Part shown: positions 6,701 to 12,311 of the stretch, in pieces | Position numbering within the stretch: position 1 is the stretch's first letter | Layout of the letters: each line of letters opens with the position of its first letter | Virus record (IMG/VR): IMGVR_UViG_3300009182_000274 | Location: 1-26,849 of that record | Direction: 5' to 3' (one strand) | Length of the DNA stretch: 26,849 bases | Source: a virus | Translations under genes and position numbers: made by a program | The notes under the pieces: model-generated | Told to the model about the DNA's origin: nothing | Database searches by the model: none | The model's input: only the letters and a program-made list of their open reading frames with translations

Positions 6701-7126
6701 ATGTGGATTTATAAAGATAATATTGTCGAAGAATTGCCAGAAGATTGTGTCGGATTTGTTTATGAAATAACAAACCTGACCACCAGCCGTAAGTATATTG
6801 GCAAGAAATTAGCCAAGTTTTCTAAAACAACCTATCGCATGGTTAAACTGAAAAACGGCACAAAAAAGAAAAAGAAAATCAGGTCTAAGATTGACTCAGA
6901 CTGGATGGAATATTATGGTTCTAGTATTGAATTGAGTAAGGATGTTGAAGAACTTGGTAAAGAGAACTTCAAACGAGAGATTCTTTTTTATTGTAAATCA
7001 AAAGCTGAATGTTCATACATAGAAGCCAGAGAACAATTTACTAGAAGAGTGTTGGAATCAATGGATTATTACAATGGTCAAATCAGTGTAAGAGTTCATG
7101 GTTCTCATATCAGAGGAAAGTTATGA
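6701..7126 (+). CDS. GIY-YIG endonuclease-like protein (SegE type)
   Basis: A 141-residue protein. The N-terminal GFVYEITNL...RKYIGKK is the GIY-YIG core in its VYE/YIG form. KIDSDWMEYYGSS and LGKENFKREIL continue the fold, and EAREQF supplies the conserved glutamate. It resembles the SegE-like GIY-YIG proteins widespread in T4-like phages. Whether it is a mobile homing enzyme or a domesticated repair or degradation nuclease cannot be told. There is no Shine-Dalgarno upstream of ATG 6701 that I can see; a CTAAATA box ends eight bases before it. It overlaps the next gene by four bases. Confidence 0.8.
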   Translation: MWIYKDNIVEELPEDCVGFVYEITNLTTSRKYIGKKLAKFSKTTYRMVKLKNGTKKKKKIRSKIDSDWMEYYGSSIELSKDVEELGKENFKREILFYCKSKAECSYIEAREQFTRRVLESMDYYNGQISVRVHGSHIRGKL

Positions 7127-8304
7127 CATACTTATTATATTTTACCGCTGTCTGTTTATCAGCAGTGGCAGCGTACTATTCAATTGCTGGATTGGCATCA
7201 ATCTTTGCAGCTGCAGTTATTCCTATTGTTGTAATGGGAACAGTGCTGGAGTTTGCTAAATTGGTTGTTGCATCATGGATCTATCGCAGTTGGAATCAAA
7301 TCCCAATGTTAATGCGTAGCTACTTTGTTGTGGCATTAATCATTCTCATGTCTTTAACATCGATGGGTATCTTTGGTTATCTATCAAAGGCACACTTGGA
7401 TCAAGCAGTACCGACAGGTGCTGTTACTTCACAGATAGCAATTTTTGACGAAAAGATTAGAACAGAAAAGGAAAACATTAATGCGTCAAGAGCCCAACTC
7501 AAACAAATGGACTCACAAGTTGACCAGACAATTGGAAGAAGCGAAGATGCGAAAGGAGTGGAGAGATCTCTACAGATTAGACGAGGACAGCAAAAGGAAA
7601 GAAGTTTACTACTTGCTGAGATTGGATCTTCTCAAACCAGAATCGCCAGACTAAATGAAGAAAGAGCACCGATCGCTGCGGAACTGAGAAAAGTTGAAGC
7701 AGAAGTTGGACCAATTAAATACATAGCAGCATTATTATACGGAGATAACCCTGACCAAAGTATTTTGGAAAAGGCTGTTCGTATTGTAATAATTATGATT
7801 GTGATAGTTTTTGATCCATTGGCTGTTTTGCTATTAATGGCAGCCAGTATACCACTTAAAAAAGAAGGAGAAACCAATGGCAACTCAACAGAAGAAACCA
7901 GCAGTAGCAGTGAAGTCAGCACCAGTGAAGAAAGTATCACCAGTCAAGACACCAGCGAAGAAGAAAGTTCAGTCAACAGAATTAAAGAACGATTCTTTAA
8001 CAAGTTTAGAAAACCAACCACAACAGTGGAACAACAAACTTCAGAAAGCAGTTCCAATTCAAGAGACAACAGTTCAAGTGGTCCCACAAGTGCAGGAGTC
8101 ACAACCAACACCGAAGATTCTACCACACCAGTGGATCATGCAGAAGCTGAGAAAACTGATTGGGAAATAAGTCCACCACCAGAGCCACATCAAGAAATTG
8201 AATTGGATTCTGCTGGTAGAGTAATGACACCAGTCCACCCAGACTTTATTGTTGACTGGAGTAACAAAGACACATCGCCCAAGGCAGTTCGAAAGCAAGA
8301 ATAA
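7123..8304 (+). CDS. Membrane protein with coiled coil and long Ser/Thr/Glu-rich tail
   Basis: A 393-residue protein. Hydrophobic segments are at about 3-20, 27-50 and 66-88, then a coiled-coil region (about 100-195), then another hydrophobic stretch (VRIVIIMIVIVFDPLAVLLLMAA, about 218-241). The core up to about 245 matches a membrane protein I recall from aquatic T4-like phages, function unknown. The rest is low-complexity S/T/E-rich sequence. A second gene in another frame, 7877-8170, lies entirely within the part encoding this tail. The start overlaps the previous gene by ATGA. A role in membrane or envelope modification is possible but unproven. Confidence 0.75.
   Translation: MTYLLYFTAVCLSAVAAYYSIAGLASIFAAAVIPIVVMGTVLEFAKLVVASWIYRSWNQIPMLMRSYFVVALIILMSLTSMGIFGYLSKAHLDQAVPTGAVTSQIAIFDEKIRTEKENINASRAQLKQMDSQVDQTIGRSEDAKGVERSLQIRRGQQKERSLLLAEIGSSQTRIARLNEERAPIAAELRKVEAEVGPIKYIAALLYGDNPDQSILEKAVRIVIIMIVIVFDPLAVLLLMAASIPLKKEGETNGNSTEETSSSSEVSTSEESITSQDTSEEESSVNRIKERFFNKFRKPTTTVEQQTSESSSNSRDNSSSGPTSAGVTTNTEDSTTPVDHAEAEKTDWEISPPPEPHQEIELDSAGRVMTPVHPDFIVDWSNKDTSPKAVRKQE
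7877..8170 (+). CDS. Nested overlapping gene: basic Lys/Ala/Pro-rich 97-residue protein
   Basis: A complete reading frame inside the tail of the 7123-8304 gene, in a different frame. AAGGAG at 7865-7870 lies six bases before ATG 7877, an optimal spacing and among the clearest ribosome binding sites in this region. The first 30 residues are rich in Lys, Ala, Val and Pro (SAPVKKVSPVKTPAKKKV), like histone H1-type or nucleoid-binding tails; the rest is Gln/Pro-rich. Codons use GCA, CCA, ACA and AAG in the style of neighbouring genes. I infer that it is expressed and may bind nucleic acid; an artefact of the overlying repetitive tail is the alternative. Confidence 0.55.
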   Translation: MATQQKKPAVAVKSAPVKKVSPVKTPAKKKVQSTELKNDSLTSLENQPQQWNNKLQKAVPIQETTVQVVPQVQESQPTPKILPHQWIMQKLRKLIGK

Positions 8305-11561: not shown

Positions 11562-11617
11562 TGTTTAGTACAGATGAAGGTTGTCCAGTGTGTGGTGGTA
11601 AACACCCTAAGAAATAA
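11561..11617 (+). CDS. Micro-protein with CPVC zinc-binding-like motif (18 residues)
   Basis: Eighteen codons, MFSTDEGCPVCGGKHPKK, joined on both sides by TAATG junctions: its ATG overlaps the 38-residue gene's stop and its own stop overlaps the iscU ATG. C8-x2-C11 followed by G-G-K-H is a half zinc knuckle. It may be a real micro-protein or only a translational bridge into iscU; it is too short to judge by composition. Confidence 0.45.
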   Translation: MFSTDEGCPVCGGKHPKK

Positions 11618-12003
11618 TGGCTTACTCTGATAAAGTAATCGACCACTATGAAAATCCACGTAATGTGGGTTCTCTAGATAAAGACGATCCATCAGTTGGA
11701 ACTGGTATGGTTGGTGCACCTGCTTGTGGTGATGTGATGAAACTACAAATTAAGGTAGATGAAAATGGTATTATTAGAGATGCTAAGTTCAAGACATATG
11801 GCTGTGGTTCAGCAATCGCCAGTTCGTCGCTGGTTACAGAATGGGTTAAGGGGATGCACATTAACGATGCTGTTAATTTACGCAACTCTCAGATTGCCGA
11901 AGAACTAGCATTACCACCTGTTAAGATTCACTGCTCAATACTTGCAGAAGATGCAATTAAAGCAGCGATACATGACTATCAATTGAAATGTGAGTGTGTA
12001 TGA
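11617..12003 (+). CDS. iscU: Iron-sulfur cluster scaffold protein IscU
   Basis: A 128-residue IscU, the scaffold on which [2Fe-2S] clusters are built from IscS-supplied sulfur. All functional residues match E. coli IscU and at the same numbers: C37 (GAPACGD, with D39), C63 (YGCGSAIASSS), C106 (KIHCSILAEDAIK) and the LPPVK motif 99-103 that binds the chaperone HscA. From memory the identity to E. coli IscU is very high along most of the chain, pointing to fairly recent transfer from a gamma- or beta-proteobacterium. The C-terminus differs and adds two cysteines (KCECV). No iscS, hscA or hscB is visible, so host partners must be used. Confidence 0.95.
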   Translation: MAYSDKVIDHYENPRNVGSLDKDDPSVGTGMVGAPACGDVMKLQIKVDENGIIRDAKFKTYGCGSAIASSSLVTEWVKGMHINDAVNLRNSQIAEELALPPVKIHCSILAEDAIKAAIHDYQLKCECV

Positions 12004-12311
12004 TAAATTTAACTGAATCAGCAAAACAACAACTTACCGAAATTCTTTTAGATGAACCATCCATGAAATATGTAAGGGCATTTATCACTGGTGGTGGCTG
12101 CTCTGGATTTAACTATGGGTTTACACTTGAAGCAGATAAAGAAGAAGATGACTTTGTTATAGACAATCTTGTAGTTGATGCCATGAGCATGACTTACTTT
12201 GAGAATGCAACCATTGACTTTACCAGCGACAAATTAAAAGGTTCACAGTTTGTTATATCGAACCCAAATGCAAAATCAACCTGCGGATGTGGTAGTTCGT
12301 TTAGTGTATGA
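12000..12311 (+). CDS. A-type iron-sulfur carrier (ErpA/IscA-like)
   Basis: A 103-residue carrier that receives Fe-S clusters from a scaffold and delivers them to target enzymes. The three cluster cysteines are present: C34 in GGGCSGFNYGF and C95/C97 in CGCGSSF. The GGGCSGF form and spacing look more like ErpA than IscA, but I cannot separate them with certainty. ATG 12000 overlaps the iscU stop by ATGA; an in-frame GTG at 11994 is less likely. The end overlaps the metallophosphoesterase start in the same way. Adjacent to iscU, it makes a minimal scaffold-plus-carrier module. Confidence 0.92.
   Translation: MINLTESAKQQLTEILLDEPSMKYVRAFITGGGCSGFNYGFTLEADKEEDDFVIDNLVVDAMSMTYFENATIDFTSDKLKGSQFVISNPNAKSTCGCGSSFSV

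Follow-up and report, generated by a model that had tools for sequence, protein, structure and literature searches.

The gene for a membrane protein in a water-borne, T4-like phage very probably contains a second protein-coding gene, which has been overprinted on it in another reading frame and is maintained by selection. The window, the whole stretch of 26,849 nucleotides that was analysed, is a virus record that we take to be T4-like from its nrdA/nrdB, segE-like, ligase and RNase H-like genes. The nested gene extends from an ATG to a TAA at positions 7877–8170 (plus strand), in the +1 frame of an outer gene at 7123–8304 (plus strand), and encodes 97 amino acids; it is defined by its open reading frame, by its counterparts in relatives and by substitution tests, and has no database match. 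A sequence-only reading of the window had described a 97-residue frame wholly inside the outer gene, with AAGGAG six bases 5' of its ATG, and this is where the frame was located. The Shine-Dalgarno-like AAGGAG occupies 7865–7870 (plus strand), exactly six bases from the ATG.

The outer gene and its nested frame

The outer gene encodes a protein of 393 amino acids with transmembrane helices predicted at about residues 2–88, a long helical hairpin at 99–206 and a further transmembrane helix at 212–242. Residues 243–351 form a disordered, acidic tail rich in serine, threonine and glutamate, which is followed by a short conserved C-terminus. A search with the outer protein returned 80 loci, and with further searches the family grew to over 600 stretches of IMG/VR; among deposited genomes of isolated phages the homologues are only distant, and the one in Pelagibacter phage Mosig is annotated as nothing other than a hypothetical protein. 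No PHROG with a known function matched the outer protein, nor did any PDB fold. Its membrane and coiled-coil region has weak profile similarity in relatives to DUF4407 (E 0.0035–0.0044; at most 17.1 bits against a Pfam gathering cut-off of 31.3) and, in L022, to Tetraspanin (2e-6), all of these scores being below the Pfam cut-offs, and the window's own protein gave no DUF4407 match at E values up to 0.1 and is not placed in that family. A Foldseek search with the outer model found only coiled-coil look-alikes at E > 0.01; the model had a pTM of 0.32 and the search was therefore not used.

A SegE-like GIY-YIG gene (6701–7126, plus strand) adjoins the outer gene on its 5' side and overlaps the outer start by 4 nt; it was matched in 85 fetched loci. 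In three relatives (L065, L072 and L076) small Lys/Arg-rich open reading frames that resemble ribosomal protein bS21 (GENISQALRRFKRKVEDSG...) lie 3' of the outer gene. Elsewhere in the window, positions 960–1409 and 1406–1669 hold an overlapping spanin-like pair: the first frame encodes a coiled-coil protein with a membrane anchor and the second a small protein whose start resembles a lipobox (MRTLLLVSLIALSGCSTT). NifU-like and IscA-like iron-sulphur assembly genes, recognised from translation only, are adjacent at 11617–12311.

The nested product begins MATQQKKPAV..., has a pI of 10.3 and a net charge of +12, and lacks both cysteine and a hydrophobic N-terminus. It had been called histone-tail-like, a description that suits its Lys/Ala/Pro-rich first third and does not extend to the rest: the most conserved part is a C-terminal amphipathic helix at residues 83–95 (8123–8161, plus strand), predicted with a pLDDT of about 80 and a helical moment of 0.72. 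The helix is conserved in relatives as QWIAQKLKKLIGL or NLWNWLKQSIKK; by subgroup it reads HQWIAQKLKKLIGL in one, NLWNWLKQSIKK in another and SLWKKFLSLITLK in a third. Searches of Pfam, PHROGs and PDB gave no match for this protein or for the product of a second nested frame in the coil-coding region, and the nested gene was absent from the deposited isolated-phage genomes that were searched.

In 28 of the 176 distinct outer genes, the window copy included, a nested frame with an ATG start and no fewer than 85 codons begins at outer codon 249–252. These carriers form one clade (clade A) in a tree of the outer N-terminus, a narrow range compared with the more than 600 stretches in which the outer gene occurs. 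All 28 retrieved members of the clade have the ATG at that position, a frame of 85–117 codons, an amphipathic helix at the frame end and a purine run (AGGAG, AAGGA or GGAAG) 5' of the nested ATG that is equivalent to the AAGGAG of the window; their products have basic, Lys/Pro-rich starts in common. Within the clade, L018 (575–1720) joins a window-like N-terminus to a tail of the group-2 type, and L001 and L002 barely differ ahead of outer codon 250 but have diverged strongly beyond it. The tail and the nested gene thus appear to be swapped as a unit by recombination near outer codon 250. In L014 the outer gene (693–1637) has a premature stop in its tail, yet the nested frame runs uninterrupted as far as its conserved C-terminus; the outer stop could be a true truncation or a sequencing error.

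Selection on the nested frame

Taken alone, the window sequence holds nothing beyond chance expectation. Its tail is open in the +1 frame in about 5–12% of codon or synonymous shuffles, a second per-sequence estimate gave a probability of 0.157, and about 5% of shuffles contain an ATG frame of at least 97 codons at some place in the outer gene's +1 frame. Codons with T in second position are scarce in an S/T/E/N-rich tail, so stops in the +1 frame are rare anyway and the frame could be naturally stop-free; single-sequence probabilities of 5–16% for the window copy and 0.2–24% for its relatives would accommodate an accident of this kind. The relatives as a group do not. The overlap contains no +1 stop where 48.8 were expected, and the frame is open in 19 of 19 non-redundant clade-A members against an expectation of 1.4, although the contigs are related and shuffle z-scores overstate significance accordingly. 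The tails of clades B and C, by comparison, do contain +1 stops, and clade A has conserved the ATG, the ribosome-binding site and the C-terminal helix. The shuffle models the clade-A tail imperfectly: stops in the +2 frame are depleted there as well (59 against 182 expected) because the inner frame skews the choice of outer codons. A chance open frame is therefore a reading to which we attach hardly any probability, and the pattern of substitution, which changes its periodicity within the overlap, counts against it too.

That pattern was derived from simple parsimony and pairwise counts, rather than from a full two-frame model, and from tail alignments that are rough and low in complexity with many in-frame indels. 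On either side of the overlap, substitutions peak at outer position 3; within it, by parsimony counts, the peak lies at outer position 1, which is the third position of the inner frame. In group g1a (L003, L005 and L007) the changes at outer positions 1/2/3 number 21/13/93 before the overlap, 27/12/19 inside it and 5/7/20 after it (Fisher p 1e-6); in g2close they number 28/4/110, 44/19/25 and 1/2/8 (Fisher p 1e-9). Across four groups, two of them small, the flip has Fisher p values of 1e-6, 8e-3, 2e-2 and 1e-9. The outer frame is itself coding on both sides of the overlap, where its position 3 dominates, and through it, where outer stops are confined to L014.

Change that is synonymous in the outer frame falls within the overlap to 0.29–0.40 of expectation, whether normalised by degeneracy or by codon usage, whereas clade-B tails that lack the frame give 1.0–1.1. 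Nearby genes lie mostly at about 1, with one 80-codon window of nrdA at 0.49 in two pairs. Members of group 2 show few synonymous changes past the nested stop as well (0.34–0.35, n=61), and their reduction may be due in part to recent exchange of tails; the periodicity test is independent of such exchange. Per site, changes that are silent in the inner frame and alter the outer protein occur at 0.216 in the overlap against 0.135 for the reverse, compared with 0.206 against 0.367 in clade-B tails. The NN/NS ratio alone was dropped as a measure, the non-overlapping part giving a similar value (0.55).

An RNA element or a signal at the codon level could hold the sequence in place instead of a second protein, and synonymous constraint on its own would fit such a signal. 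Against it, changes that are silent in both frames occur at a normal or high rate, albeit at few sites (2 of 3 in the clade-A tail, 12 of 24 in the clade-B coil and 4 of 8 in clade C). Changes that are silent in the inner frame alone are common, whereas outer-silent changes that create a +1 stop are nearly absent: their rate is 0.026 at 19 sites in the clade-A tail and about 1 in the tails of clades B and C. The RNA at the nested start folds no better than its shuffles (z -0.04). We regard a signal of this type as scarcely credible. Between them, the selection tests rule out chance and render a signal at the RNA or codon level improbable. The comparison of substitutions in both frames among relatives, which had been suggested as a check when the frame was noticed, thus indicates that the inner frame is under purifying selection over and above the constraint from the outer one. 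A spurious gene had been expected to acquire stops in close relatives that keep the outer frame; the opposite was seen, with all 19 nested frames open and L014 losing its outer frame instead.

Were the inner frame reached by programmed +1 frameshifting, it would provide the membrane protein with a different C-terminus and yield no free peptide. Shine-Dalgarno-like runs can stimulate frameshifting; such a run is present here as a potential stimulator, and the window's inner frame has 13 open codons 5' of its ATG. The open stretch is, however, just 3–13 codons elsewhere, and in L090/L002 a +1 stop lies directly 5' of the nested ATG, so a frameshift fusion is impossible in that member and the nested frame needs its own start. 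The nested ATG is also invariant and no shared slippery motif was seen. Frameshifting is accordingly a very improbable source of the product, and we infer independent initiation of the nested frame on the outer mRNA. Ribosomes on that mRNA would initiate separately at AAGGAG-N6-ATG, with the result that one message would yield two proteins.

A second nested frame and the order of origin

The outer gene contains another nested +1 frame, which the sequence-only reading did not notice and which is more widespread than the tail frame. In the window it lies at 7481–7654 (plus strand; outer codons 119–176) and would encode 57 amino acids, compared with 75–99 in clade B; AAAAGGA at 7466–7472 (plus strand) is a possible ribosome-binding site by its sequence. 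Synonymous constraint and stop avoidance mark this coil frame in most of the family. The signal came first from raw codon-position counts, which were replaced by tests normalised for degeneracy and codon usage. Synonymous change relative to expectation is 0.54–0.67 in clade A, about 0.5–0.6 in clade B (codons 119–196) and 0.35–0.65 in clade C, and the downstream end of the constraint coincides with the stop of the frame: in clade A, where the frame ends at codon 176, the value is back to 0.85–1.26 in codons 178–204, and in clade B, where the frame usually continues to 194 or beyond, it is still 0.60 at 178–196. Stops in the +1 frame number 4 against 39 expected in clade A, 0 against 129 in clade B and 21 against 131 in clade C.

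The start of the coil frame is consistent in clade B, where AAGGA(G) precedes the ATG, in many members right after a TAA; it is not uniform in clades A and C. Clade C (L102–L181) has the frame open for up to 133 codons and constrained, with no consistent start codon or Shine-Dalgarno site, and the coil frame is probably a gene there too; having the same constraint and stop avoidance, this clade was dropped as a negative control. The coil frame is probably older than the tail frame. Its clade-B product is basic, rich in K/P/S/T (pI about 10.3) and has an N-terminal amphipathic helix, a composition much like that of the clade-A tail product, and the clade-A coil product is short and not strongly basic. 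It is possible, though doubtful, that the outer gene was overprinted twice with equivalent products, the coil protein of clade B and the tail protein of clade A, and that the function moved within the host gene. Alternatively, all clades would make the coil product and clade A would have gained a second one.

As to which frame of the tail came first, the sequence-only reading had proposed that overprinting created either the outer tail or the nested gene, and overprinting is supported with the nested gene favoured as the newcomer. The outer C-terminal motifs past the nested stop, DSAGR...TIE.DV.DLQK (DSAGR at 8206–8220, plus strand) and SDV(K/R)EI..P..GRP(D/E)R(Y/F)K, are found again in relatives that lack a nested frame in the tail, so the outer tail predates the nested gene, which is probably the younger of the two. 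The opposite order, in which an ancestral nested gene was read through by an extending outer frame, draws on the overlap itself, where constraint is stronger on the inner frame than on the outer. Those same motifs speak against it, as does the dominance of position 3 of the outer frame past the nested stop, and searches of IMG/VR and of isolated phages turned up no free-standing homologue of the nested protein; we consider this order improbable. With the nested gene as the newcomer, its distribution on the outer-gene tree is consistent with a single origin: it would have been born once, in one clade, by the overprinting of an existing tail spacer.

Possible role and wider meaning

The nested product may, tentatively, be a peripheral partner or regulator of a membrane complex. 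A basic and largely disordered peptide that carries an amphipathic helix would bind the membrane or the acidic cytoplasmic tail of its host protein, the outer tail having a net charge of -12 to set against the +12 of the nested product. This proposal is drawn from composition, charge and the predicted helix, and the genetic code itself dictates some of the charge complementarity, since GAA codons tend to give lysine in the +1 frame.

Other phage genes have a comparable arrangement. In embedded two-component spanins such as lambda Rz/Rz1 a small gene is nested in another frame of a phage membrane-protein gene (PMC6139136). The present case resembles these in having a small gene wholly inside a membrane-protein gene with a coiled-coil part. 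Unlike Rz1, an outer-membrane lipoprotein, the nested product is basic and disordered and has no signal sequence or lipobox; several membrane helices are predicted in the outer protein, where an i-spanin such as Rz has one N-terminal anchor; and the window has a separate spanin-like pair at 960–1669. Lysis gene E of phiX174 is likewise a complete gene nested within another, D, in a different frame and with its own start, an example cited in PMC8227390, but E is a lysis protein that spans the membrane and the nested product contains no hydrophobic stretch as long as that of E. De novo overprinted viral proteins are clade-restricted and rich in disorder and lie over an older and wider frame (PMC8227390), features that are all found here. 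The present example differs from the reviewed cases in belonging to a large dsDNA phage and in that one host gene apparently has two nested frames.

Nested out-of-frame genes are seldom annotated in large DNA phages. Here selection on such a frame is legible from public contigs, with frame-less tails, the positions past the nested stop and the other reading frames serving as internal controls. The avoidance of +1 stops supports scanning phage families for this kind of gene-finding signal. An old frame nested across most of the family and a younger one confined to one clade, both in the same gene, make a natural system for the birth, the upkeep and perhaps the relocation of overprinted genes.
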